Shown: positions 33,249 through 53,039 of the stretch, piece after piece
Layout of the letters: every line of letters starts with the position of its first letter
How positions within the stretch are numbered: position 1 is the first letter of the stretch
Assembly (NCBI GenBank): GCA_033064195.1
Contig: JARBJD010000262.1
Location: 43,465 to 107,464 of the forward strand
Length of the DNA: 64,000 nt
Direction of reading: 5' to 3'
From: Blattamonas nauphoetae
Taxonomy: Eukaryota; Preaxostyla; Oxymonadida
Made by a program: the position numbers and the translations under genes
The notes under the pieces: model-generated
What the model was told of the DNA's origin: nothing
The model's input: the letters and a program-made list of their open reading frames with translations, nothing else
Databases searched by the model: none

Positions 33249-34944
33249 ATGACAATGATTGTCGATGAACAAACTCCATTTCGGAAGCTTCTACGTCAGG
33301 AGCGAGGAAAGATTACAAAACTTGCGTGGGACGCTCTATGCTCCAACTGGCCGTCCAATCCTGATGACCTCATGATCCATCTTGTATGCTCCAGCAAGAA
33401 GTGTCCATCCGTGCTGGAATTCATCGAGATGAAGCACAATGGTATCGCTTCATATTGTTTTTAATGCATGGTTCTAAAAAATTTCAGAAAAGATGAAAAA
33501 CCTTGTGAGAGACTGTTTGTCCATTGGCCAAAAATCCAGAATTGTGCCATTAGATATCGAATCTGTGCTAGTAAACCACTTCTCTTTGCCTTTTTTTGTG
33601 TCTTGCGGGTTTCCTGACTCGAACAGTCGCTTCGAAACCGCTCGTCAGCACTTCAAAAAAGGATTACACAAGAGAGATAAACAAACACGCCCACCTCCAT
33701 CACGAGCCCCACTAAATGACCATCAGCAGGTTCAATTTCATGATTTCGAAGTGAATCACTCTGAGGAGAGTTCCAAAGAACAACGTCTCGTCACAGGAGA
33801 TCCGTCCAAATGGATGCGGGTGAGGTCGATATGTCAGCCCAAATATAAGATCTGGCAACAATTGGAGTCAGAAACAGGAATAAAAATAGCATACAGTACC
33901 TTCTGTGTCTTGACGCGCGATTTGAAGGAATCAAGAAGAAGGACAGACGTCTGTCCAGACTGTCTCCGGATGAAAGAAGCTTCTCATGAGTTGGCGGCTC
34001 TGTCAGAATCTGAACAAGGAAAGATTGATGAGTTGGAGAAAGAAATCCAAGCCCTTGAATGTCATCGGTATGAGGCGGAGGATCAAAGAAGAGCAATCAA
34101 CCAAATCAGACAGAACCTTAAAAAAAATGAAGTAATGATTATCGCAGACTTCAAAGAAAATTGGAAGATTCCAATCGAATGCGAAGAATCTCAACAAGCT
34201 TACTTCGACAAGCAACAACTCACCGACCTTGCCTTCGTTGCGTTCTACAAGGATGAGAAAGGACAGATGAACAAACAAATATATCATTTCATAAGCGAGA
34301 ACCTCAATCACAACGCATCATTTGTTGTGGAAGCGTTGGAGGCCCTATTGGAAGATCATCTCTTTGATCGAGCCCAGACTTTATTCTTTGTCTCGGACTG
34401 CGGACCTCATTTCCGCAATAAACAACTTCTCTGTTATTTCCTCTCGGATTTACCTACTCTGAATCAATCCCTTTCAACTTGTATCATATTCTACTTCGAA
34501 CACCACGGTAAAAATGTATGCGATTCTGAATTCGGAACTATGACGACATTGTTGAAAAAGTACCCTCCTCAACACACTATATCCACTTGTTCACAGTTTA
34601 CTGACTACTTTTCTGGAATTGAGGAAGCCAGAGCTGGACGCAATGTGAAATTCATTTCATTCTCACCAACATTTCCAGCCGAGGCTCCAGAGATAGACTT
34701 CGACGGTATCACAAGGTATCTCTGCTTCGCAATTGAGAGCCAGCAGCTAATTTGTAGTCCGTCAGCCACGATACCCAAGAATCTCTGGCGTCCTCTACCG
34801 TTTCGATACCAGAGGGTCATCAACGACTTCGACATAAAACAATGGCATCAAATCATCGCCTCAAATCGAACTGCAACATCGAAGGAAAAACAGACGCGAT
34901 TTCTGCAGAGAATGCGAATGATCGAAAAAAGGATCGTGTCGTGA
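33249..34944 (+). CDS. DDE-type transposase, two exons, 549 residues
   Basis: Exon 1 (33249-33441) and exon 2 (33488-34944) are separated by a 46-bp GT-AG intron ending ATTTCAG; phases agree (MKHN-EKMKNLV). The N-terminal half has a DNA-binding character and a CPDC pair at about residues 220-223. The RNase-H-like core is visible: Asp at about 285 in MIIADFKENW, Asp at about 368 in FFVSDCGPHFRNK, and a Glu in the EHHGKNVCDSEFG segment (402 or 412), the last resembling the HGKGxxD motif of several eukaryotic DDE transposases. The frame is intact, so the element may be active. It would cut and paste the element and could mobilise the shorter copy at 40442-41301. Confidence 0.75.
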
Positions 34945-36120: not shown

Positions 36121-38684
36121 TCAGTCCTGAAAGCAGATGAATGCAAATTGTGCAATTTTTAATTTTTTGTAACGCACCATAGTGTAAAGTAACATTTCAT
36201 TTAGAATCACCCAGATTCGTTTGAGCCACAGCACTTCAATCGGAGCATTCTGTTCTTGGGTTGTGATTCCGAGGCAGAGTGGAGAAGGGATGTCGGTGAA
36301 GATCCCAGGCTGTTCCTCATCGTCCACAAACAGTCGAGCTTCTCTCGTTGTCATGTTCACTCGAATCGCTGCGGTCTGTTCAGCTCGATCACACTTCTTG
36401 TTGGTTCCAGCTGGCTTGAATTCTCCTCTTTGCCACATCCTTCCACTCCAAAGAATGAAGTCGCCACCAATTCCACTGAGATAGGATCCACAACCAGACT
36501 GTGTGGCATTTTCAGGAAGTGGATGTCTGAGGAAGCCAATCACTGAAAAGATGAGAAGAGGGAAAAACACACTCAGATGCCAACATGTATTGTTTCCTCT
36601 GATTTTGAATTCCCACTCTCCCTCGTCGATTTGAAAAGTGAATGATGTTCTCCAATCAGTGTCTTTTTCGAGTTTGATGATCTGTGTGAGAGTGGTTGGA
36701 GTGAGGGTGTGAGCTGTTCTGTTGAGTGTTCGGAGTGAGTCTGTTCCAACCCATGCGGTTGGCATCATCATCTTCATCCGCTCCATCTTCTCTTCTGCTC
36801 TCAGCTTCTCTTCCTCCAATGCTTGGATTCGTACAGACTTGGAGAAAGCTTGTTGTCCCTGTTCAGTCTTCAAGAGGTCGGTTCGAGCAAGATGAAGAAC
36901 TTCAACCGTCCATTTGTGGATATGTGTTGAGATTCCGAGGCAGAGTGGAGAAGGGATGTCGGTGAAGATCCCAGGCTGTTCCTCATCGTCCACAAACAGT
37001 CGAGCTTCTCTCGTTGTCATGTTCACTCGGATCGCTGCGGTCTGTCCAGCTCGATCACACTTCTTGTTGGTTCCAGCTGGCTTGAATTCTCCTCCTTTCC
37101 ACAGTCTTCCACTCCACAGTTCGAAATGACCACCAATCCCACTTCCATATTGTCCACACTGTATTTCTGTGGCGTTTTCAGGAAGTGGATGTCTGAGGAA
37201 GCCAAGCACTGAAACGATGAGATGAGAGAAGAACACACCGACACCCCATGGTGTTTTGTTTCCTCTGATTTTGAGTTCCCACTCATCCTCGTCGATCGGA
37301 ACAGTGAAAGCTGTTCTCCAATCTGTAGCGTTTTCGAGTTTGAGGATCTGTGTGAGAGTGGTTGGTGTGAGTCTGTGAGCTGTTCTGTCGACTGTGGAGA
37401 GTGATTCTGTTCCAGCCCACGCGGGGGGCATCGTCAGGAGAGACATGAGCAGTGCATTTTCATTCAAGAGTCTCGACTCCACATCAGCGAATCTTGCAGA
37501 TTGTTCTTTCAGTTCTGCGTCTTTCAGTTTCCAAACTCCTTCAAGTGTGTTCACAATGCATTGGAACGATTTGGAGAGTCGCAGCTGGCGACATGTTATT
37601 CGAGAGTCGGCACTCTAATCAAAAATGAGGAGGATGAGAGAAAAGGAGAGATGAAGAAGTTGTAGAGGACGAAAGAAAACGAACGACGATCAAAAGAGAA
37701 GAGGAAGGCAGACTGGGTCCATCATTCGCATCAGCAGTGCTCGCTCTTCCTCTCCACACGTGTTTTTTATCGAAGTCGCTTTGAATGACCCAATCTCTCG
37801 AATCAATCGAGCGGTATTCTGAGATTTGAATGGCGGCTCCCCAAACAGCAGCCAGAACAGAATCACCCCCAACGCCCACACATCCGCCTCGCACGTCGCC
37901 TTTCCAGTTTCCGAGTCCATCCGCTCCGGCGACACGTACAGCTCCGACATCACAGATCGACTGCTGTTTACATGTTCCGACTCTGCTGCCCCAAAATCAC
38001 CTTCGACGATGCGATAGAAGATTGGGAGGAGGGAGGCAGTGGAAAGGATGGCGGAGGGAAAAAAGAAGCACACAGAGCTTTGCATGGCCATCTGCGTCCA
38101 TCAGGATGTTTTCTATTTTGATATCGCCGTGCGCTGTCCTTCCGCTTTCGTGTTCGTGCATCATTTCCAGCGCCGACGAAATATCCTCCATCACCCGATA
38201 CACTTCCTGATATAATCAACACAATCACAGATGAAAGACAATAATGAGATAAAAATGACAAATACGAAAAAGAGCACGAATAAAAGGTGATTGGCGAACA
38301 CACATCGGGAGGCATCGGTACATGCCTTTGAGCGTAGTCTTGAACAACTTCGGCAAGAGATCTTCCGCCCAGTTCCAGCACCATCACTTGGCGGCCCTCC
38401 ATCGTCAAAGTTTCCTTCAGTTTGATGATTCGAGGATGCGAGAAAGTTTTCAGCCTTCCAACTTCACGATCGAAGCGGTCTTTGTGTTTCTGCGTCAAGC
38501 ACTGCACTATCTTCCCCGCATAGTGCGTGTTGGTCGACTTTTCAATCATTTCCACAACCGTTCCAAAACCGCCAGAGTTGATGATTCGAACGAACGAATC
38601 TGAGCAGGACACAGAAATGCAAATGGACAATGTAATCGAGAAAAGGGACATACACCCATCAGGAACTTGGATAGAATCAGTCAT
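36121..38684 (-). CDS. Protein kinase with two SPRY-like domains; C-terminus altered by a transposon
   Basis: Exons: 38684-38654, 38599-38304, 38206-38074, 38000-37714 and 37614-36121 (GT-AG introns, consistent phases), 746 residues. The kinase domain (about 12-250) has the glycine loop INSGGFGTV, Lys40 in HYAGK, the catalytic loop AHGDIKIENI (Asp137, Lys139, Asn142; Arg of HRD replaced by Gly), DFG at 155-157, SPE and DVWALGVILFWLLFG, so it is probably an active Ser/Thr kinase. After a short coiled segment come two tandem copies of a domain starting PPAWAGTESL / PTAWVGTDSL and ending TREARLFVDDEEQPGIFTDI, which I read as SPRY/B30.2-like beta-sandwiches. The last 30 codons (from WVILNE) are transposon sequence: the element at 32917-36212 inserted at the original stop, and joining across it restores ...LKRI-stop. 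No signal peptide; cytosolic. Confidence 0.8.
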
Positions 38685-40441
38685 ATGATTCGATCACAAT
38701 TTTTGCTTGACTTTGAGAGAGTGATCTACCCAAAACAAAAAATGTTTCGATTTAAGCCAAACTCATTCAGAGATTTTTATCTCGACTTGAGTTTGACGTA
38801 CCTCGAAAATAATGACTGTTTACAATCCTTGTTTTGAAAAGATGGAATGAAAGATGAACTGACACATGAAAATGAAGAATAGGCTGTGAAGCGAGAATCT
38901 GATGATAGAACAGAAAGACAAAATGACGAAGTAGTGTGGTAAGCATTATTCATCCATCTCAACAGGAATCGTTCCTCCAACCATCTGCGGCTCGTCCACA
39001 ACTTCAACTGACTCAATCTCAACTGCATCGTTCTTCATGTTGATGTACACAGCGAATCTGAAGGGAACAGGGATGTTCGTGAAGAAGGCTGGCTGTATCT
39101 CTCCATCTTGCGACAGTTTCAATGTTCGCTTTCCTTCTCGTCCATCTGCCTCCAACACCATTCGCTGTCCCTTGTTTCCTTCCTTACATGCTTCTCCTTG
39201 ATTTGTGACGTTGTTATTCTGTACTGTCCATTGATAATCTGAAATTAACCCCCATCCTGCTCCTCCCTTCAGTTTGGGAAAGTGATCCAAGAGAGCTTCG
39301 TCGGTCAGATTCGACGAGATGATCCCAACGTCGAAACCGGCGTTCGGTCCATTTCTGATTGTGAGCGACAGACGAGCCACAACTGCCCCAAACTCGAACG
39401 AGACAAGCGAAGTAATCGAATCCCGTGATTTCGAGATGACATTTCTTGACACTTTCCAGTCTTTGCGGTTGAACAGTTCGATCGCTGCGGCTCCTTTTTG
39501 AGATTGTCTCACAGATACTTGTCTTGCTAGAGATGACGCGAGAGGTGCAGTTGAACCAATTCGACTTGAAGGAGCGACCGGCTGAAGAGGAGGTTGGGTC
39601 TGGTTCGATCTCGATTCGGCCAACTCTCGTTCCAAGTGAACGATCTTCTCTTCAGCTCGCTTGCGGGCGTTCTTTTCCATTTCAAGTTCGTTCTTCCATA
39701 TCTCTTTTTCGGAACGGTGTTCTTTGTCGTCGGCGTCTTTCAGTCTCCAAAGTGCGGAGGGAGTGTTCACAAGGCAACGAAACACTCCACATGAACACAA
39801 TTGGGAACTCGTCACTCGAATCTCTGGGTTCTGAACAGAAAACAAGAAAAAGGCAAAGAATGAAGAATAGGAGAAAATGAATGAATGACGAAAGAAGAGA
39901 GAAAACAAAGAAACAAACCGGATCCAACATTCGCATCAGAAGCGCGCGTTCTTCTCCTCCACAACTCGATCCAATCATCGACACTTGGAACGATCCAATC
40001 TCTCGCATCAACTTGCTTGGATTCTTCGATTGGAACGGCGGCTCCCCAAACAGAAGCCAGTGAAGAACAATCCCCAACGCCCACACATCCGATTGGCACG
40101 TCGCCCTTCCTGTTTCCGATTCCATTCGTTCCGGCGACACATACAGTTGAGACATCACTCCACGCGTCGAACTGACATCTTCCGATTCCGCTGCCCCCAA
40201 ATCACCTGAACTCCCAAAAAAATAGATAAACCACAAAAAAGAATGAAGGAGTGAATGAAGAAATGAATGAGAACCAAAAGAAGGAAGGAAGATAGAACAG
40301 AAGAAGAAGGGAATGGAGAGAAAGACAAACACAATTTGAAGTGTCCCCCTGCGAAAAGAAGAATATTCTCCATCTTCACATCTCCATGCGCTGTTGCTCC
40401 GCTTTCGTGGTTGTGCATCGAATTCAGCGCCGACGCGATAT

Positions 40442-41301
40442 GGGCGATTCTGAATGAAAGGACGCGTGCGTTACAACTCCGTCAACATTTGAAAGATCGT
40501 TGAGAAAGCTATTCATCTCCCAGGAACAATCAAAATCTCCATCTTGAAGGTTTATATTATCTCTTTTTTTCATTTTCACTCACTTTTCTACAAATTCAAA
40601 GATCAGGTGACTCATTCTCCATCAAACAACTTTAATCGGTCAGATCGATGATTGAACCGACCTTATACCGTGTATTGCATGCGATTCTTTTGGTTTGTGT
40701 CATTTATTTCGTTCACATTGACAGACACTCAGCACTTTTTTCAGGTGAGACGGATCGTGTCTAACAGGCAGAAAACAATCTGGCCTGTTCACCTATCTGA
40801 TGCTTTCTCCTGTTTTCACTCGATCATGTATCTTTTGTCATGAATTTCTCATCTTATAGATCACAAACTGACACGGACTTGTTGATCGTCCTCCTTGTCC
40901 TCTAATTCAGATCAATCTCAATTTCCCTTCACTTTATATCTCAAACCACCTTAATTGGATATGTCTCTCCAATTCTTAAGTCTAAATTCATCAATCTTGT
41001 CGAATCTTCAGATCCGCACTTTTCACGTCTTTTTCTTCAATAGATGTATTTGTATTGGTTCTCTCACACAGAATAGGGTTTTTACGTTGTTTTACATCAT
41101 TTCTCCATTTTTCAACTTGTTCTGTGATAAAAAGTGTGCAAAAGTGTCCGGATCAAAAAATGGCTTTATCGAACGCGATCCTACTTGAAATCCAGTAATT
41201 CACTCTTTTTCTGTCGACTAAACAGATGAACGGTAATTGTGCAAAAAATGATTTTTTGGGACGCACCATAGTGTTTTGCGACCTTTCAAAGAGAATCGCC
41301 C
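40442..41301. mobile_element. Non-autonomous relative of the DDE transposon, 860 bp
   Basis: Ends GGGCGATTCT (left) and AGAATCGCCC at the right form inverted repeats that match the termini of the element at 32917-36212 with one T/C difference. The inner right end (GATGAACGGTAATTGTGC, GACGCACCATAGTGT) is close to the corresponding part of that element. A perfect ATAT duplication flanks it (40438-40441 and 41302-41305). No transposase frame is present, so movement would need the enzyme in trans. It interrupts a kinase exon just before the catalytic loop. Confidence 0.8.
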
Positions 41302-41540
41302 ATATCGACCATCACTCGATAAACAACCTGAAATTAAAAGAAACACAAACACAACAATAATCCATCCTTGAACAACATTCAACCCAAAGAACAACAAAAT
41401 TAGTCACAATAAATGAGAAAGCAACGATTCAAAATCAAACTTCGCGAGCCACAAGAATTCCACGAGATGTGTGGTCTCGAACTATTTCAGCAAGCGACTG
41501 TTCTCCCAGTTTAGTGAGGAGCAATTGTCCGGACAAGGTG

Positions 41541-41568
41541 AGGCGCTGTCCGTCCTCGGACAGCGCCT
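41541..41568. repeat. Perfect 12-bp-stem hairpin near the left end of the hAT-like element
   Basis: AGGCGCTGTCCG and its exact reverse complement are separated by TCCT. A related GTCCGATGTCCGAGGA sequence near the right end of the element suggests this is a subterminal transposase-binding or structural motif. Confidence 0.7.
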
Positions 41569-41811
41569 AATTAGGAGGTCACCACTCGTAAGTCGCAACA
41601 ATGGGCTTGATCAACCAATTCTTTCTGTACACGACTAAACCCAGGAATTAATAAATTGATGACGAAAACAATAAGAGTGAAATAGGAAGGTTACATGTGG
41701 ATGCGTGAATATGAGGAAGAAAAAGTAATTTAAGAGGATGAGGTGGGAAAGTGACGTTTTGGAGTGTGGATAGGCTGTGATGACCGTGCGAAGGGGCAGG
41801 AGGGAATGAGT

Positions 41812-42590
41812 ACACGAGGTGAGGGGAGGGGATGATCACACGAGGTGAGGGGGAGGGGATGATCACACGAGGTGAAGGGAGGGGAGGATCACACGAGGTG
41901 AGGGGGAGGGGATGATCACACGAGGTGAGGGGTGGGGATGATCACACGAGGTGAAGGGAGGGATGATCACACGAGGTGAAGGGAGGGGATGATCACACGA
42001 GGTGAAGGGAGGGGATGATCACACGAGGTGAGGGAGGGGATGATCACACGAGGTGAGGGGTGGAGATGATCACACGAGGTGAGGGGAGGGGATGATCACA
42101 CGAGGTGAGGGGGAGGGGATGATCACACGAGGTGAGGGGGAGGGGATGATCACACGAGGTGAAGGGAGGGGATGATCACACGAGGTGAAGGGAGGGGATG
42201 ATCACACGAGGTGAAGGGAGGGGATGATCACACGAGGTGAGGGGGAGGGGATGATCACACGAGGTGAAGGGAGGGATGATCACACGAGGTGAGGGAGGGG
42301 ATGATCACACGAGGTGAGGGAGGGGATGATCACACGAGGTGAGGGAGGGATGATCACACGAGGTGAGGGGGAGGGGATGATCACACGAGGTGAAGGGAGG
42401 GGATGATCACACGAGGTGAAGGGAGGGGATGATCACACGAGGTGAGGGAGGGGATGATCACACGAGGTGAGGGGAGGGATGATCACACGAGGTGAGGGGA
42501 GGGGATGATCACACGAGGTGAAGGGAGGGGATGATCACACGAGGTGAGGGGGAGGGGATGATCACACGAGGTGAGGGGTGGGGAACGATT
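41812..42590. repeat. Minisatellite, 25-28-bp unit, roughly 25-30 copies
   Basis: Tandem copies of a unit with constant part GATCACACGAGGTGA followed by a purine tract (AGGGAGGGGAT, GGGGGAGGGGAT, GGGTGGGGAT). Only the G-run lengths vary between units. The array lies inside the hAT-like element. The G-rich strand could form unusual structures; it has no coding capacity. Confidence 0.95.
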
Positions 42591-42601
42591 CCATTGATTC
42601 T

Positions 42602-43141
42602 TCAGGCATTGACAGCAGGGATGTCAAATACCCCGCGCCTGTTGAAGGAGACGACAAATGTGCGGTTGGTCGGTCGGTGTTTTCGGATAGAGAGGAGACG
42701 ACCAGATCCAAGAACGAGGGACGCATCGTCGATCGAGAGACCGGAGCAACTGACGGAGACATCAGAGTTCATCTCAGAGCAGGACGGTTGGGAGGAGTCG
42801 AGATGGTTGAGTGACGAAATGGCTGTCAGAGGAAGGAGCGTCCGAAGTTCACTCGATCTGTGAACAACGTCAATGATCGAAATCGAACTGTCATCGTTCC
42901 CCTCAGAACAGACAATCATAAATGGGGAACATTCAGGATTTGAGATGATCGTACTCGACGAGACAGTCACGTTGGAGTTAGAGAGTTTTCCAGCCGATGT
43001 TCCCATCCATCCGCAATCAATTATCATCAATGATACCAAAATCGAGCAGTGTGTGAAGATAAATATGAAGTTTGTCCTTTCGTCATGGTGGTTGGCTTTG
43101 TTCTTCCCCGTCAGAGACTCATGATGATGAGTTTCGTCCAC
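42602..43141 (-). pseudogene. Captured beta-helix fragment inside the hAT-like element
   Basis: An open minus-strand frame reads LSNSNVTVSSSTIISNPECS, SSISIIDVVHRSSELRTLLP and SVSCSGLSIDDASLVLG, the short-strand repeat style of the beta-helix surface proteins at 12286-21057, 47240-53039 and 54061-61976. There is no signal peptide or membrane segment and the ends are abrupt. It is best read as a host gene fragment picked up by the transposon. Confidence 0.55.
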
Positions 43142-44480
43142 CGACTATATGTGACAGATTCTTGTTCGTTTTCCTCAAAGATTCAGCGTGGTAGATGAGA
43201 CTAGGTACTGTTGCGCATGAAATTGATGGTTGTTTAAGTCGAGTACGCGTGGAAATCCGTCCTGATTGTTGCATTTTTCTGGGGTCGGCTCCTCATCGAT
43301 TGCGAATCCGAACAGAATAATGGAGTGTTGACATAGTCGCACTTCACGGTTCGTTTCGGAGATTGATCAAGAAGAAGTTCATCATCCGCCAAATCCTTGG
43401 AAGCTGGTTTTGAATGAACCGATTACTCTCGTTCTGTAATTTGACGCATGAATAAGACCTGCTGAACACGACATGTCCCGCGTGCATGATAAGAGGATCC
43501 GTTCCGTGTCTCCGCTTTTCAAAAATATGCTGTGATGTTCAGAGACTCCTTCAGTTTGATCTCAAGGCGGTTCTCGATTGTGAGTGAATTAGACATTGTG
43601 TCGAGTCTGAAGATGTGAACCTTTCCTTCAGATAATGAACTGACAATGAGAAAAGCAGAATTGTGGACAGTGTCGGGAATGTGATGTCCTTGATCTTCTG
43701 CGTTTTGTTTGGAAGAAAAGAGGAGGCGTGTAATGAGACTAATCGATGAAGATGAGTGGAGAAAGAAAAAAGATGCATACTGATGTTGTTTGTGATCCAG
43801 ATTTCTTCTATTTATGTCCATTTCTGATTGGAGAAAGATCTTATCATCTATTACAGACAAATGAAGAGAAAGAGGTAGAGAAGAGTGAAACGATAATAAA
43901 AATGAATACTGATATTGTTCATTTTCCATGTGTCAATTCAGTGTGACATCATCGAGAGTGAGGAGATGGGCAAAGTGTGAATTGTGGAGATCTCCACAAG
44001 TTTGAAATTCAATGGAGACAGCAATGAGTGACAATTGGATAAAAGAAGTGTGGAATGGACAAGGGAATTCGAATTGCGATGTAATGGTCTCTGAGAGAAA
44101 ATGTGAGTCGAAGTCACCATCCGATGGGGAGGACGATCCGGACCTGTCCAGGACTGGACACGATTGTCCGTTTCCAAATGATCATAAATGCCTCGTGAAG
44201 AAATTCAGACGACTCTTTTTTTCACCAAATGAGCTCATGTCCAAGATCGGACAGGCCAGGACAATTCGGCAATTTATGGGATTTTTGTCCGAATTCTCTA
44301 ATACTCGTTTTTGATTTTTTTGAAAGACAAAATCTGAACAAAATTAACATCTTGGATGAATTGGAGGAAAAATTGAGTGTCAATCACGTCTATTTAAGCC
44401 ACAAGAAACACTTCTTTCCGACTTGGACAGGGTCTCTGTCCGATGTCCGAGGAGAACGTGGTTTTGTCCGTCCGTTGCTC
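43142..44480. other. Right interior of the hAT-like element; one further possible captured exon
   Basis: On the minus strand, 43738-43519 encodes HNSAFLIVSSLSEGKVHIFR followed by LEIKLKESLN, which could be one beta-propeller blade, preceded by an AG. Nothing else is recognisable. Confidence 0.3.
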
Positions 44481-45035
44481 ATCCCTATCCCAGTTCCATC
44501 ACAATCACTTTCATGTTGTCCATCGACGCCAATTCTTTCAGTCCAACAATTCCGGGATGCGCGAACATTCGAAGTCGATTAACTTCACGATCTATTCGCT
44601 CCTTGTCTTTTGATGTCGTGTACGATATCATCTTTCCCGCATAATGTTTCTGAGTCGATTTATCCATGATTTCCATCACACTTCCGAAACCTCCAGAGTT
44701 GATCGGTTTCACGAACGTATCTACACAAAGAAGACAATATGAATCATCACTGAAATAGAAGAGGATAACATACATCCATCAGGTACTTTGACTGATTCTG
44801 ACATCTTGAATGACCGTTCTTTCCGACTAAGTTCAAGATCAGAACAAACCATAATCATGCCAATTCAAGGATTGAATTGTGGAAATGAGCCTTAAATCGT
44901 TCCATACTGTTCTACAACTGATCCAAAAGTTCGCACAATCTCACGTTATCAAACTGACATGCCAATTAGAATCGATGAAGTGGATGATAACGAATAAGAG
45001 TGAAGTGAAATGGCGTGAGGAGAGAAAAGCTCTGA

Positions 45036-46986
45036 TTAGTCCATCATCACGTCCAAACTCCCTCCAACCATCGACGCCTCTCTCAACACTTCTGTGGACA
45101 CAATCTCAACAGAGGCACCTGTTGTGTACAGAAAAATGCCGAATCTGAATGGAACAGGAATGTTGGAGAAGAAGGTTGGCTGTGTCTCTCCATCCTGCGA
45201 CAGCTTCAATGTTCTCTTCCCTTCCCGTCCATCTGCCTCCAACACCACTCGCTGTCCAACTTCAGCATCTTTGCAGATCGACCCATGGGGTGAATCTTTG
45301 TTGTTTTGACGAGCCCGCTTGTACGAGGGGTTCAGGTCCCAATTTGCTGCTCTTTTGAGATTTGCGAAGTAGCCTCGGCCAGGCGTGGCCTGTTCAACCA
45401 TTTCGGGGGCGATCAGACCGACTGCCAAATGACGAGGGTCACACTGTCTGATCACGAACGTGAAGCGAACAACGATTGGTCCGAAAGTGATCGTGAAGAT
45501 GGACGAGCAATCAGTGACGCTTTTGGTGAACACATTTCCAGAAAGGGTGAACTTGAGAGGTTGGAACACTTCGATTGCTGCTGCTCCTTCCTTCCTCATT
45601 TTTCGTCGCTCTTCGTCTTCTTCTTCGATTCTCTTCCTTTCGGCTTCTCTCTTCTTCTCTTCATCCCTCTGTCGTCCTTCTTCAATCCATTTTTCGTTCA
45701 TCTTCTTCATCTCTTCAATCTCTCTCATCTTCATCGAGAACTCTTTCTGTCTCTCCTCTTCCGCGCTCTTTTCTGCCAACTTTCTTTCATTGTCTCGCAT
45801 CTCTATCTCTCTCTTCTCCTTCTCCACTTCTTCTCGTAACTTCGTCCGTTCTGCTTCCATCTGTCTCATTTTGTCGTCCATCTCCCTTCGAACAGCCACC
45901 AAGTCAATCCCAATCTCTCCAATCTCTTTCTCCAACGAGTGGATCGACGATCGGAAATGACGAACAATCATCCCTCCAATCTTTTCTTGTACCTCGCGTG
46001 TCTTCCGGTCGGCGTTTCGTTGTCCCCCAACTCTCTTCTCAACAACCAGAACTGCTTTCTCAATTCGAGCAATGGCGAACCCGCAGCGACGTGTCAGCGA
46101 GAACTGGTCTTCCTTTGCTTCTTCGTTTTTCTGGACAGTCATTGTCAACTTGTGATTTTCGATCACTTCGCTCAATCCTGAGCACAATCGGTCCAAAACA
46201 TGGAGTGCTGGGAGATGATCCCCTTCGCCAGAATCGGTTTCGATTTGAGTGCAAAGTTGCTCCACAATTCCTGAACTCAACACTCCCTCCAGTTCAATCA
46301 ACGAAAGACTTCCACCAAACAGAAGACTTCAAACATAAATCAAAGCAAAGTGAGAGAGAAAGGAGAGAGAAGAGATGAGAGAATGATGAAGAAGAGAAAA
46401 GAGACCAGACCCAATCGAGTGTGTGGCTGGTGTCGACAACGAACTGTCTGCATGCTGATCAACCAAACAACAGCGAGATGAGGATAAAGAAGGAGAAAGA
46501 GTTGAAATGAAGAGAAGGAGGAATAAACAGATGTGAGGGCAAGGAGGGAAGGAATCAAGTCACTCAGAAGTCTCTGTCCTCCATCTGACACCGATGTCGC
46601 CATCACCACAATCATACTTGACAGAATTGCCTGAAAACCGTCGAAGAAAAACAAATGAGAAATATCATCATATCGAGAGAAGAAGAGAGACAGACAGAAA
46701 GGGTGGATGGACAATCCGAAGAAAGTCGTTCTGAAAATATCTCCAACAATCCACTCCGAATCCCAATCTCGCTTCGTTCTTTCATTTTCGATGATTCTAA
46801 AAGCCCACAATGAAGGAAAATAATGAATCAAAATTAAAAGAAAATGATCGTAAACAATCACAAAATCAGATGGAAATCATTTGACAGACCTGACGTGAGA
46901 ATGTTGAGGATAGAATGAGCAATCTTGAATTGGGCAGTTTCATCGCCATTCTTGAACTCACTTCCACATCTCCTGAATTCTTCCAT
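45036..46986 (-). CDS. ARM-like, coiled-coil and SPRY-like domain protein, five exons
   Basis: Exons 46986-46890, 46796-46696, 46630-46529, 46454-46411 and 46326-45036, GT-AG introns of 59 to 93 bp, all phases consistent, 544 residues, start MEEFRRCGSEFKNGDE. The first 170 residues are helical and ARM-like (SGLLEIFSERLSSDCPSTL, SVSDGGQRLLSDLIPSLLAL). A long Glu/Lys/Arg coiled coil follows (EEVEKEKREIEMRDNERKL). The C-terminal domain (from EGAAAIEVF) is the same SPRY-like domain found at the end of the kinase gene 38946-44804 and ends LKLSQDGETQPTFFSNIPVP. The gene lacks a kinase domain, so the shared C-terminal domain has been combined with different N-termini in adjacent genes. Probably cytosolic. 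Confidence 0.75.
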
Positions 46987-47239: not shown

Positions 47240-50200
47240 ATGATTTTCTTCGGACTGATTTCTCTCTTTGCGCTTGTCCACCAATCATCTCATTATCTCT
47301 TGACGTCCATTCTTCATGAAAACAACTCTCTGAACACACAATCAAACAACCAAGTCACAATTACCATCAATTCTCCACAGATTTTTGATGCACAAGTTTC
47401 CAGAACTGATATCTCCGCCAACATATTCGCACTCGTGTCTAATACCTCTTTATCTTTCCTCCCGACAGGGTGTCTCTCTCTGTCCAATTCGAGCGTGTCG
47501 TTCTCGTCATTCTTTCTCATTCCATCCAGCGAAGTCTTCATCATCAGAAGTTCTTCTCTCTGTTTGGCCGATTGTGCGGTTTCTTTGAACATACATCCCT
47601 TATTTGTCTTGTACGATGGACACCTCGAGATTCGTCATTCGACATTCCCCACAAGATTCACTGCCGCATCTACACTCTCAACAAAGTCTAACAATGGGAC
47701 ATTCACTCTATTTAACTGCTCATTTTCATCAACTCAGAACGCTGAACGTCATCCATTCTTTCAAGTTCCAACTGTCTCATTGTCGATTCATCAGTCGTCC
47801 TTCTCGAATATCTCATCAACGTCCCCAGTCCAATTTCATTCAAAGTCTGATCATACCACACCAACGACTTTTCGGAACTCATACGCCACGTCCTGTCACA
47901 ATCTCTTCGTCGGAACCGTATTCAAACCGATCGCAGCATCCTTCATTGCCTCCAACTCATCTTTTATGAATTCAGCACATACAAATCAGACCTTCCATGA
48001 TCGACAGTCAATAGAGGATGAATCTTCCTCATTTCATTCGTGTCAGTTCATTAACTGCACATCAACCGAAAATGGAGGTAGCATCCACTTTTCAAATTCC
48101 GAACACACCCTCACGTTGATAAATTGTCAATTTGAGAATTCTTCATCTGATGGGGAGGGAGGAGCGATGTGGATCCGGTCGAAGAGCCTTCTCCTCACGA
48201 AAGTGACCTTTACATCGATTAAATCGATCGCAAATGGCGCTATTTTTGTGGATACATCACAATACAAAGCAACAGAATGCCATGCAAACTATTGCTCGAC
48301 CAAGACAGGTCCATGCTTTGGTCTCTTTGTCCGACAGTCAATGTGGGTGTCTAACCAGCTCTATATCCTTAATTCTCGACCAGCTGATGGATGTTGCCTT
48401 TTGGAAATTCAAGATTCTCCGACCATTGCCATGACATGTGGAATGATCTCGATCCCGTCGGATCAATCGGAAACAATAGATACTGTCTGTATTTCTCTCC
48501 CACAAGCCACCAAAGTGAATATAATCCAATCTTCCTTCTCTATTCCTTCGCCAACCAAGAATGGATATCTCATTTCTGCCCCATCTTGTGACGCATCTTC
48601 GACAACAATGAAGATTGTTAATTGTGTTGACAGAACACCGACATCAGCCTTTCATCCTCTGGCTCAGAAAGACAATATATATTCCAACCCATTCCAACAC
48701 ACATTTCTAATATTTTATTTGAGTCCAGACGGACAAGACAATGAATTGTGCGGGGTTGGGAATCCGTGTCACACCCTCCAAAGAGTCATCAAATTTGACT
48801 CTCCAATTCTCCAAGCGAATTTTCTCCCTGGTCTTTTTCAAGAGACAACTCCTCTCCCCATGAACTGTTTGCATTCTCTTCATTACTCATTCTCTTTCAG
48901 TCGTCTCCACATCCATGACAGGCGATCCTCTCTCGTCCTTCAGAGGGACTTCAGCTCCTTTTTTCCGTTTTTCGTTCCCTGTTCCATTCCGCAACACGTA
49001 TCATTTTGAAACCATGACCTTCATTCTCAGTCAAGAATTTGTCGGTGGTTTCATCTCAATGAATGTGGATTCAAGCATAGTCACATTAAACAATATCCAT
49101 ATATCGTTTCTTCCAGAATGTGAACGACATAACGAACCGTATCTCGCCCAAAAGGACAACAACGTCGATGCACTCATCCGGTGGGAAGAGGGGTTGTCAG
49201 GAGACGTCCAACTTGACCGTGTGTCTATCAAGAATGCTTCTGTACCAACATATTTGTACTTTGAGTCCGAATTAAGCAACTCTCTGGAGATCATTCGTTC
49301 TTCCTTCACCGATCTAACATTGACCGTTCCCTTCGTATTGATCCTTCCATCGTCCTCAACAACAACATTGAACGCCCAAAACGCATTTTGCCTCTCGATC
49401 TCATCAACAACTTTCAGTACAATCACCGCACCGGAAGGTTTCATCCGACTCGCAGGGGTGCGGAAGGCTGTCTCCATTACCTCGTCCACTTTTCGAGAAA
49501 TCACAGCATTTGGAGCTAGTGCAGTTTTTGACCTCCGTCAAATGGCATCAGTTATGGTTTCGGAGACTGTTTTCGAACACAACTCAAACGATGAGGACGG
49601 GGCTATCATCTTCATTGATTTCGAGCAGATTTCAAATAATCAGCTCTTTTCGTTTGGTTCCGAAGATCTACAGATCAACAACACTGTTTATCTCTTCGAA
49701 TTGAACACGGAAATCTTGACCAACTTAAATCAACAAAATCCGGAGTCAATTCCGTATATTTTCACAAAAGTTCTTTTCCAAGATAATCACAGCCCATCAG
49801 AGCGTGGATCAGACCTCCAATTCACTTCCAACACAGACTCTGTCCAGCCCATCAAATTCACCAAGTGCCGTTCAACATCCATCTGGCCACGCTGCTCCAA
49901 TCGAAAAACAGGATGGATGGGTGACTTTATATCCACACCTCTTGGCGAGATTTATTTATCGCCGTCTGGGACAGACACTGCCACATGCGGCGAGCTGTAC
50001 CAGTCTTGTCTTCATCTCTCGTTCGTCTTGAAGCAACTCGTGTGCTCCTGTCACACGACAATCTTCACCACTGGATACTTGGATAACAATCTCCCGCTTC
50101 TCCAAGATGTGAACACGACAGTAAACGGACAACACACATCCACAATCTCGTCGTCCGCCACTTCAATCTTTCTAATCAAAAACACGCAATTCGTGCTGAC

Positions 50201-53039
50201 CTCACTTTCCTATCTTCTCAGCGGTGAATCTTCATTTCCGCTTGTCGAAGTCCACAGTGGGAGAGCCTCAGTTGAGGATGTTCTGGTTCTTCTCGCCGAC
50301 CAAACTTTTTCTGATGGTGTGAATCAAGACAATCTCACTTCATTCATTTCTGCGTTGTCTCTTTCCTCTCCTTCTTCTCTCTTCTCATCTCTCTCTTCCT
50401 TATCCTTCAGCTTCGATTGTATCAGTAACATCAGGAGTTCTGAACGTGGTGTCCCTCTCCTTCGTCCGCCCACATTTCCTCCATCTCGACAACGTCCCAG
50501 TCGTCCTCGCAAAGACAACCAACTCTGACCTCTTTCTCAGAGACTCGTCACTCTCTTATTGTCACCGAGCTGTCGGTGGGGGTTGTGGGGTTGAAGCTAC
50601 TGTCGGTCTGTTTCTCTCCCGGTTCATTCCTCGTCTCTTCTTTACTTGTCTCGTCCCAGGCCCTTCACACAGACTCGAAATTGCCGGATGCATCTTCCGA
50701 AACACATCCTCAGTGAGCGATGGCCAAGCCTTCAGAATCATCATCCATCCCAACTCCATCGTTGAGATCTACGACTCGCGATTCGACGAGTTTATTCTCT
50801 CCAAAGACAGAGGCTCAATGCTGACCATCGTGCCAGTCTTTGAGAAAGACGCGAGCGGCGTCAACGTGTCGGGCAAAGTTATTATGGCTCGGAACCTGAT
50901 CGCGCTGACACACGCTGACGGCACAAAAGTTGGAGGAGCACTCCTCATTGAGATGGACAGTGTTCACGGTATCTCCAGTTTTCTCCTCACTCGTACTTTC
51001 CCATCCCTTCTCACCTCGTTCTCTCCTCTCTCTTCTCACCTCGTTCTCCTCCCACAGATCTCCCAACGTGGGTCACAACCAACCTGACGATCTACAACCA
51101 TTCGATGGAGTCGATGACGTGGTATTGTCTCGTCGCAGCTGAACGAGATGCGGACCAGCCTTTCTCGAGCGACCCTGACCTCGCTCTCCACTCCATCACA
51201 TCACTCTTCCCTTATCTTCTAACCATTCCGAACAACTTCCATGTCAGCGAGAGTGGGGCTGATGGAATGAGGTGTGGGAACAACGACTCGCCTTGTCGGT
51301 CGTTAACTTACGTGCAGGGTGTGTCTCCCATTTTTTCTCCATTTTTTTGAATTATCGCATCAGAACACATTCTTGCCGCGCAAACTGAGCGACAGGTGAC
51401 AATCGCAGACACCACAACAATCGTGACTAGCATCCACAACACTCACTCTCCCCTCACAATCGACGGGCTCAACAGGAACCTTCTCGTGGCCACGTGGAAC
51501 GGGAAATCGTCTCACTCCGAAACCGACGAAACAGCAATCATCATCTGCACACGCCACATGCTCCTGAAGAATCTGCAGCTCGCCCTGATGCCGGGAAAGC
51601 GGTGCCCTGACGGCATCTTTTGCGCAGTCGGACGGAGCGAGCCGTGTCTTCTCAACATCTCCTCCGTCACTCTCACAATCCAGACCGACCGAACGTCTCT
51701 CACGTACTTCAGAGTGGACAACGCCACACTCGACCTGAACTCGTTCTCAATCCCCGCCAACTTCCATCCCGAGCCGTACGATCCAACGAATCCGACTCCG
51801 TTCTTGGACGTTGTTTCCAAATCGAAGATTGTCATCTCAAATTTCGATATCTCCACGCTAACCTTGTGCGCCCTCTCTTTCTCGTCATTTCTGAACGCGA
51901 GGGAGGCGGAAGATGTGACGTGGACAGCCACGTCGATTTCTTCGAGTGTGACAGACATCCCACTCTTCAAGATTGTCGACACATTCAACACGTTTCTCTC
52001 TCAAATCTCGTTCTTGTCACACACAAGCAGCCAACCACTCATCTCAATCACATCATCTGTCCAATCTGATCTATACATCGAAAACATTCGGATCGTGTCG
52101 TCCAGAAGCACAGCCTCTCACACCATCCAAATCGACTCCACTTCTTCGATTCTTGCTCTCAAACGACTTCAAGTCTCAGACTTCTCGATCACTCCCACCG
52201 GCCCCTCCTCTCCCCATCGCGGTGGTCTTCTTTTCATCTCAGCAGACGATACCTCGAGCCTCCAGATTTCCAACATGGACGTTCAGAACGTCGTGTTCAA
52301 CGCTGACGCATCACAACGAACACTCGGGACAGTTTATCTGAACCTCACATCGACAAATGACCTCCCCTTCCAACAGTCTCTTCTCGTCAACTTCCTCTTT
52401 CGGAATGTCTCTGCCACGCTCGGCACACAAATCGTGTTTGAAGCCTCAGACGTCAAATCCAAGCTGAAGCAAAATGTCGTCGATTCTTCATTTGATTGGG
52501 ACTCGAATGCCTTTGTCGGTTGTGACACCAAATCCGGCGAGTGCTTCTCTGTCCTCGACCAGCTGCGCACCAACCCCCTCTGGTATGTCCTTTCTGGGTT
52601 CACTGGCCTCGTCGCACTGGTTGTGTGTTTATGTATCTTATGTTTCCCGATTTCTTTCATCGGAACTTTCTGCTGCCGTCAACACTTGGGTGACTCGGAA
52701 GACACCCTCAAACGAAGACGCTGCCTCAAGTGTTGTCTTCCTGATGGCGGTTTGGGAGTGTCGGACGATTTTGCTTTTGTGGGCTTTCCTTCCATCAAGT
52801 ATGTTTACGAGACAGGGATCAGTATTGGGACAAAAGAAGATGATCAGTTTTGGGAAGACATCCGTTCCAAAGCCTCGAGTGCGGTTGATCGTGCAGACCA
52901 CAGCGAGGCAGATGAGAATGAAAAGAGAGTGGAGCCTGATGGAGCAAACAAATCTGTGTTGGGGAGAAGAATTGTTGATGAGAGTGATTCGGAAGATATC
53001 CTCATCATCGATACCGATTCCGAGGACTCTAACTTTTAA
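47240..53039 (+). CDS. Beta-helix membrane protein with acidic tail and no kinase, six exons
   Basis: Exons 47240-48830, 48901-50316, 50411-50605, 50660-50968, 51058-51318 and 51364-53039; all five introns (70, 94, 54, 89 and 45 bp) are GT-AG and phase 1, giving 1815 residues. The N-terminus MIFFGLISLFALVHQ is a signal peptide. The ectodomain has beta-helix repeats (FINCTSTENGGSIHFSNSEH, NCQFENSSSDGEGGAM) and three Cys-rich spacers: SPDGQDNELCGVGNPC, SPSGTDTATCGELYQSC and SESGADGMRCGNNDSPC, the last split by an intron just after it. One membrane segment near residue 1670 (YVLSGFTGLVALVVCLCILC) is followed by a Cys pair and a tail of about 120 residues rich in Asp/Glu (ESDSEDILIIDTDSEDSNF). 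It is a likely surface protein related to the receptor-pseudokinases but without their tail domain. Confidence 0.85.

Follow-up and report, generated by a model that had tools for sequence, protein, structure and literature searches.

The kinase splA and ryanodine receptors were the proteins in which the SPRY domain was first characterised, and SPRY domains serve as protein-binding platforms (PMC5071358, in the part of that text available to us). With splA as a first description, the fusion of a kinase to a SPRY domain is not new in principle. Here we start from three adjacent genes, A, B and C, on the minus strand of a 64,000-nucleotide stretch (hereafter the window) of contig JARBJD010000262.1 of Blattamonas nauphoetae, a gut-dwelling protist (assembly GCA_033064195.1, positions 43,465 to 107,464 of the forward strand). 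The genes had been noticed in an initial annotation made from the letters of the window, and they are real: the exons of A and C join into open frames and B can be traced through two inserts. Gene A carries two SPRY-like domains of a type that we call T1, while genes B and C each end in one domain of a second type, T2. We propose that divergent SPRY tails probably act as an exchangeable 3′ cassette, built around T2, that sets the targets of kinases and adaptors.

Identity, number and partners of the SPRY-like tails

The view that B and C end in the same type of domain and that gene A has a different one was borne out. Overall, the T2 domains of B and C share 46% identity (E 3e-56). T1 and T2 form separate families, joined in BLAST by one 45-residue stretch (31% identity, E 6e-6). 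Pfam SPRY (PF00622) was matched by none of the domains scanned, four of T1 and five of T2, and is itself rare in the genome, with 15 matches at E <= 1. A SPRY profile was built from three genes of the same genome that have the architecture of gene C (gene-C type) and are all Pfam SPRY matches; one of them, rescanned alone, scored 1.3e-11. Comparison of profiles by hhalign gave 94.0% for T2 with T1, 93.9% for T1 with SPRY and 92.1% for T2 with SPRY. Controls stayed low: no more than 0.9% in nine comparisons with unrelated families and four with reversed profiles, and no more than 12.6% in 150 column shuffles. Structure models were made from the window sequences alone. That of T1 (mean predicted local distance difference test score, pLDDT, 45.5; predicted template modelling score, pTM, 0.51) retrieved SPRY, B30.2 or RyR entries of the PDB at all of Foldseek ranks 1-11 (best E 5.4e-4), with TRIM67, HERC1, RanBP10, TRIM9 and ryanodine receptors at the top. 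Judged from the profiles, T1 and T2 are different, remotely related families and divergent members of the SPRY superfamily, as the SPRY-like label of the initial annotation had it. No match was found in a single-sequence PDB search with T2, and PDB profile searches returned chance-like matches only (two for T2, best E 0.013; one for T1, E 1.1). An NCBIfam search yielded nothing near a cut-off, and a T2 alignment gave 37 pattern matches in viral contigs and 53 in prokaryote genomes, none of them confirmed.

The genome searched was an assembly of 88.3 Mb in 837 contigs; the published genome is given as 88,537,989 bp in 879 contigs with 25,221 predicted genes (PMC10703272, in the part available). 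The best 150 of 540 candidates were scored for T2, all 150 being listed as matches, and the best 150 of 575 for T1. For the partners, the best 150 were likewise scored of 467 candidates for the kinase exon, 185 for the gene-C exon and 169 for a second kinase subfamily, K2. Because only the best candidates were scored, family sizes are lower bounds and counts of tails with no partner are upper bounds; because T2 matches were ranked by similarity to gene B, the T2 sample is biased toward that gene. Searches with the gene-C and kinase exons gave a few further matches beyond those listed, and nine extra gene-C-type places were added to the 150 listed for the census of partners. The DNA pattern for the core motif EADGREGKRT, with at most one mismatch, occurs at 138 + 123 = 261 genome sites (backward-read control, 0). 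The T2 family thus numbers 261 core-motif sites or more, and the T1 family at least 150 copies. The end motif GREGKRTLKLSQDGE, offered at first as a mark of genes B and C, is indeed exactly common to the two, and is not special to them, given these 261 sites.

Upstream of the 150 listed T2 matches, the partner was the main kinase in 54, K2 in six and a gene-C-type module in 55, with none found in 35. When T2 positions were shifted, using the main-kinase and gene-C lists only, a partner was found for 1, 2 and 1 of the 150. The 150 listed T1 matches had the main kinase in 51 cases, K2 in seven, gene-C type in none and no partner in 92; another T1 match lay no more than 400 bp upstream in 50 of them. 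The 15 Pfam SPRY matches had a gene-C-type partner in five cases (same strand), three of which supplied the SPRY profile above, a kinase in none and no partner in ten. Where a listed partner was found, T1 therefore stands behind kinases only and Pfam SPRY behind gene-C-type modules only. Nineteen T2 loci were fetched with up to 6 kb of upstream sequence. In twelve the exons of the main kinase were in order, with a stop in the N-lobe exon of one, and all twelve keep HGDVKMEN and DLG; two had K2 and two a gene-C-type module, one had kinase pieces about 3.6 kb upstream, and two had no recognised piece. The joined K2 exons of locus L019 matched Pfam Pkinase at 5.9e-39.

Exchange of the T2 cassette

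A main-kinase gene (L012) was compared with two K2 genes. Its DNA is 91% identical to that of L019 over 871 bp and 89% identical to that of L015 over 879 bp. The common tract runs from about 150 bp before T2, through T2, to about 170 bp past it, and upstream of it L012 has no long DNA match with either gene: against L019, 15 windows of 100 columns lie at 40-62%, with two stray matches, 41 and 24 bp long. The presence of one 3′ cassette of about 870 bp, at some 90% identity, in genes whose kinase domains differ shows that shuffling is real and genome-wide. Exchange of the T2 cassette between main-kinase and K2 genes is thus shown. Two points read from the window stand: kinase and non-kinase genes share one type of domain, and that domain moves between partners. 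The supposed local nature of the process does not, since both the family and the exchange extend over the genome.

Matches between kinase and gene-C-type genes are shorter and more diverged. Seven gene-C-type loci were compared with 14 kinase loci, and six of the seven gave matches of 536-640 bp at 72-82% DNA identity (ranges from the four longest matches per locus). These matches begin 0-28 nt upstream of T2, and their ends fall anywhere from 15 nt before the end of the domain to 69 nt past it. The seventh (L034), from gene C's own clade, matches kinases in the core alone, over 150-170 bp. Trees were computed from domains picked by hand, not at random, from the listing, 36 distinct ones and then 40 more, of which eight had a stop codon and were read with X at that place. 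In the 76-domain tree, the T2 domain of L012 (there L004) is sister to that of L019 (support 100/93), that of L015 (there L007) falls in the same five-row group (90/85), and the T2 domain of gene-C-type locus L026 groups with three kinase T2 domains (100/94). The gene-C-type label (38 rows) needs eight changes on this tree, at least three of them forced by starred branches, and forms a single group in none of 200 bootstrap trees (the bootstrap had not settled). Exchange between kinase and gene-C-type genes is likely on this evidence.

Of 20 gene-C-type T2 domains fetched later, seven (L052-L055, L057, L058 and L068) have a stop in or near the last codons; since all seven belong to one ten-row clade, a slightly shorter natural end appears a better account than random breakage.

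The centre of T2 stands apart from its flanks. When the gene C clade (nine domains) is compared with kinase T2 domains, DNA identity reaches 88% in a 39-codon core, against 54% in the N part and 55% in the tail. At positions with the same amino acid, the same codon is used in 77% of cases in the core and in 51-54% elsewhere; for well-conserved columns (32 each) the values are 78% and 50% (one-sided Mann-Whitney p 0.0009, the columns not being independent). Within kinase T2 domains the contrast is small, 89% in the core against 83-87% elsewhere. This codon pattern is consistent with gene conversion through the core. The ratio of non-synonymous to synonymous change (dN/dS) in the core is 0.11-0.40 in eight of nine close pairs and undefined in the ninth. 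Elsewhere in the domain, conserved stretches are interspersed with highly variable ones. A near-invariant core together with hypervariable stretches would fit a binding domain with a constrained core and ligand-choosing loops.

A parallel dip is seen in the kinase C-lobe exon, where the proportion of silent change (pS) is 0.19-0.23 in codons 19-54, compared with 0.34-0.52 over the remaining codons; this part of the kinase may likewise be subject to gene conversion or codon constraint.

Alternative readings and the genes of the window

Several results weigh against the proposal of an exchangeable SPRY tail. The T1 model is poor: only two of its Foldseek matches reach E <= 0.001, and lectin, neuraminidase and galectin entries stand at ranks 12, 20 and 38 of the 50 listed. 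For T2 (mean pLDDT 46.3) the top match, at E 2.3e-3, is not a SPRY entry, and none of the 50 matches listed is SPRY or credible; this model was too poor to be used as evidence. The structure prediction that the initial annotation had recommended for the C-terminal domains thus pointed to SPRY for T1, at low confidence, and did not for T2. As the T2 model has no credible structural match, the assignment of T2 to SPRY is one made from profiles, and its direct match to the SPRY profile spans just 63 columns. A single origin of the gene-C-type T2 domains is not rejected by approximately unbiased (AU) tests, whether 36 rows (p 0.44) or 76 rows (p 0.31) are used, codon constraint could partly explain the low silent change in the core, and only two of the 76 domains (L047 and, weakly, L056) shift affinity between N part and tail across the core. 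In the N part dN/dS is 0.15-1.06 over the nine close pairs, which leaves positive selection unproven.

The AU result and the similar dip in the kinase C-lobe exon would also be expected if each partner class had been fused once, long ago, to an ancestral SPRY-like domain, and the DNA likeness of the T2 core reflected codon or RNA constraint. Old fusions of this kind do not account for the 871-bp and 879-bp tracts shared by different kinase genes, with their sharp edge, or for the sister T2 domains of a K2 and a main-kinase gene, and for the kinase/K2 case they are contradicted. The placement of a gene-C-type domain among three kinase domains and the excess of identical codons in the core between the gene C clade and kinases also speak against them, and as a general account we consider them unlikely.

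One may also regard T1 and T2 genes as mostly a decaying, repeat-like family, in which duplication and mobile elements drive copy number and many members are functionless. Elements have entered genes A and B, and both inserts of gene B are repeats with tens of close copies: the first 888 bp of insert 1 have 40 genome matches at 91-100% (best 40 of 213 candidates, own copy counted), and insert 2 has 43, of which 41 are at 99-100% (best 40 of 408 candidates, own copy counted). The two T2 loci with no recognised piece, the one with a distant kinase and the one with an N-lobe stop agree with such decay. The other 15 of the 19 loci, however, have an ordered front end in which the matched pieces are free of stops (11 main kinase, two K2 and two gene-C type, of which one has a gap of 797 nt). 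Retention of the catalytic motifs and the low dN/dS of the T2 core likewise count against decay, which as the main explanation seems improbable to us.

The reading of the initial annotation, that neighbours A, B and C arose by local shuffling and cooperate as a kinase/adaptor system on one ligand, is very improbable: although the genes are adjacent on one strand, B and C have a common end motif, and a T2 match followed by a T1 match within 4 kb on the same strand recurs at contigs C101 and C357, gene B is broken by two inserts and the stop codon of A by a third element, B is 79% identical to its nearest listed relative, on C101, and just 46% to neighbour C, the 150 listed T2 matches are spread over 72 contigs, and the sole gene-C-type match listed on C101 lies about 347 kb from the pair of B and A type there. 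With gene B disrupted, a functioning trio at this locus is unlikely.

The features of the locus are collected below.

Table 1. Genes, domains and inserted elements of the window (positions in the window)
Feature	Position	Strand	Basis or remark
Gene A: kinase, coiled coil, two T1 SPRY-like domains	36121..38684	minus	joined frame, Pfam kinase
Gene A exons	38684-38654, 38599-38304, 38206-38074, 38000-37714, 37614-36121	minus	
Gene A first T1 domain	36874..37431	minus	
Gene A second T1 domain	36217..36756	minus	
Mobile element in gene A stop codon	32917..36212	minus	GGGYGATTCT ends, ATCT on both flanks
Gene B: kinase, coiled coil, T2, two inserts	38946..44804	minus	paralogue L010 insert-free
Gene B exon pieces	44804-44774, 44720-44488, 41503-41441, 41327-41302, 40437-40331, 40205-39919, 39830-38946	minus	
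Gene B T2 SPRY-like domain	38949..39494	minus	
Insert 1, 2976 bp	41512..44487	minus	8-bp target duplication AACTGGGA, ends TAGKGAKGAGCAA, minisatellite inside
Insert 2, 860 bp	40442..41301	minus	4-bp target duplication ATAT, ends GGGCGATTCT
Gene C: unclassified helical region, coiled coil, T2	45036..46986	minus	joined frame
Gene C exons	46986-46890, 46796-46696, 46630-46529, 46454-46411, 46326-45036	minus	
Gene C T2 SPRY-like domain	45039..45584	minus	
Gene C conserved N-terminal helical stretch	45813..46298	minus	used for genome census

Gene A was correctly read as a kinase with two SPRY-like domains. Its five exons, separated by GT..AG introns, join into a single 746-aa frame with a Pfam Pkinase match at 3.4e-45 and two T1 copies that are 76% identical. 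The motifs AGK, HGDIKIEN and DFG are found in the joined frame, so that the catalytic Lys, HxD..N and DFG are present and the kinase is predicted to be active; the nearest PDB chains are of CDPK/SNF1 type. The frame extends about 30 codons into the mobile element past the interrupted stop codon, and a paralogue, A′ (locus L009), ends with TGA at the point of insertion. The element has the same ends as insert 2 of gene B. It contains a 483-aa open frame (33493-34944, plus strand), possibly a transposase, for which a Pfam scan gave no match above cut-off. Elsewhere in the genome (G000), a 2380-aa open frame at C65:80111-87128 holds six listed T1 copies with a listed kinase exon directly upstream, at C65:80111, indicating that long tandem arrays of T1 can stand behind one kinase.

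The kinase and T2 domains ascribed to gene B are present (kinase exon, Pfam Pkinase 3.4e-10); an intact kinase gene, as first supposed, is not, the N-lobe exon (44720-44488) stopping in the 2976-bp insert. The frame closes exactly once both insert places are treated as empty sites, and gene B's nearest listed relative, L010 on C101, aligns over both places with the inserts absent. Insert 1 has an 8-bp target duplication and short inverted ends, which we take to be features of hAT transposons, and may be a non-autonomous hAT-like element; a Pfam scan of one 179-aa frame in it gave no match. At 41800-42590 it includes a minisatellite with a unit of about 25 bp, TCACCTCGTGTGATCATCCCCTCCC and variants, in some 30 copies judged by length.

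For gene C, the coiled coil and T2 domain were upheld and the ARM-like region was not. Its five exons give an open, intact frame of 544 aa, the exon 4/5 junction having several frame-compatible solutions. No Pfam ARM or HEAT match was found in gene C or in one relative, and the ARM identity was dropped; the top Pfam hint for the N-terminal 114 aa, TTI1 TPR at 0.038, is under the cut-off. Beside gene C, at 47240-50528 on the plus strand, open frames of 589 and 537 aa overlap each other; with a signal-like start by eye, they may represent a split surface protein gene.

Proposed mechanism and comparison with known systems

The proposal that T2 tails are exchangeable can be put as follows. SPRY-like domains have expanded greatly in B. 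nauphoetae, and recombination would move a 3′ cassette, consisting of a short linker, the T2 domain and the 3′ flank, behind different front ends: the main kinase subfamily, K2 and, most likely, a kinase-less helical coiled-coil module. The tail would bind a target protein, so that tail picks the target and front end decides its fate. In kinase versions an active kinase domain would thereby be supplied with the target; in gene-C-type proteins, tail and coiled coil could scaffold, sequester or compete for it. Binding, ligand choice, kinase activity, scaffolding and competition by these proteins are what we infer.

A bolder version is that hundreds of SPRY-like tails with hypervariable loops and a homogenised core, handed on as a 3′ cassette between kinases and coiled-coil adaptors, form a recombining recognition repertoire in which new pairs of tail and effector arise continuously. 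We regard this as doubtful. If true, it would be akin to the use of B30.2 in animal immune receptors, and might serve in sensing gut bacteria, self or parasites.

In titles and the starts of abstracts, no account was found of a SPRY-kinase family in oxymonads, of SPRY in Monocercomonoides exilis or of a SPRY-kinase expansion in protists, nor, judged by title, did work on the Monocercomonoides kinome yield one. No word starting with SPRY occurs in the available main text of the paper on the B. nauphoetae genome (PMC10703272). As far as this literature shows, what is new is the scale, the divergence that hides the family from Pfam and the visible exchange between two kinase subfamilies. A large signalling family, with 261 core-motif sites in a genome of 25,221 predicted genes, goes unnamed by the Pfam and PDB sequence searches made here. 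Since the DNA edges of the swap are directly visible, shuffling of domains between kinases and adaptors becomes testable at single junctions.

T1 and T2 are tied to the SPRY/B30.2 superfamily (PF00622; TRIM, RanBP9/10, HERC1, RyR) by their profile links to the Pfam SPRY domains of the same genome; they differ from it in that the domains scanned miss Pfam SPRY and have no credible PDB sequence match. In TRIM proteins the C-terminal domain stands behind a coiled coil, a layout that resembles the placement of T2. Giardia, also a metamonad, has a lineage-specific explosion of NEK kinases, whose known partners are ankyrin and not SPRY; the kinase of gene A, in contrast, is nearest to the CDPK/SNF1-type chains noted above. 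The SPRYSEC proteins of potato cyst nematodes are, like T1 and T2, a large lineage expansion of SPRY with variable loops; as described in the available part of PMC5071358 they are secreted effectors, mostly without other domains, whereas T1 and T2 are fused to kinases or coiled coils. Dictyostelium splA, compared here from its description and on points other than domain order and kinase class, has a kinase and SPRY in one protein as genes A and B do. Unlike splA, the B. nauphoetae family comprises at least 150-261 copies per domain type and at least two kinase subfamilies, with the SPRY-like domain as a C-terminal tail that changes partners.

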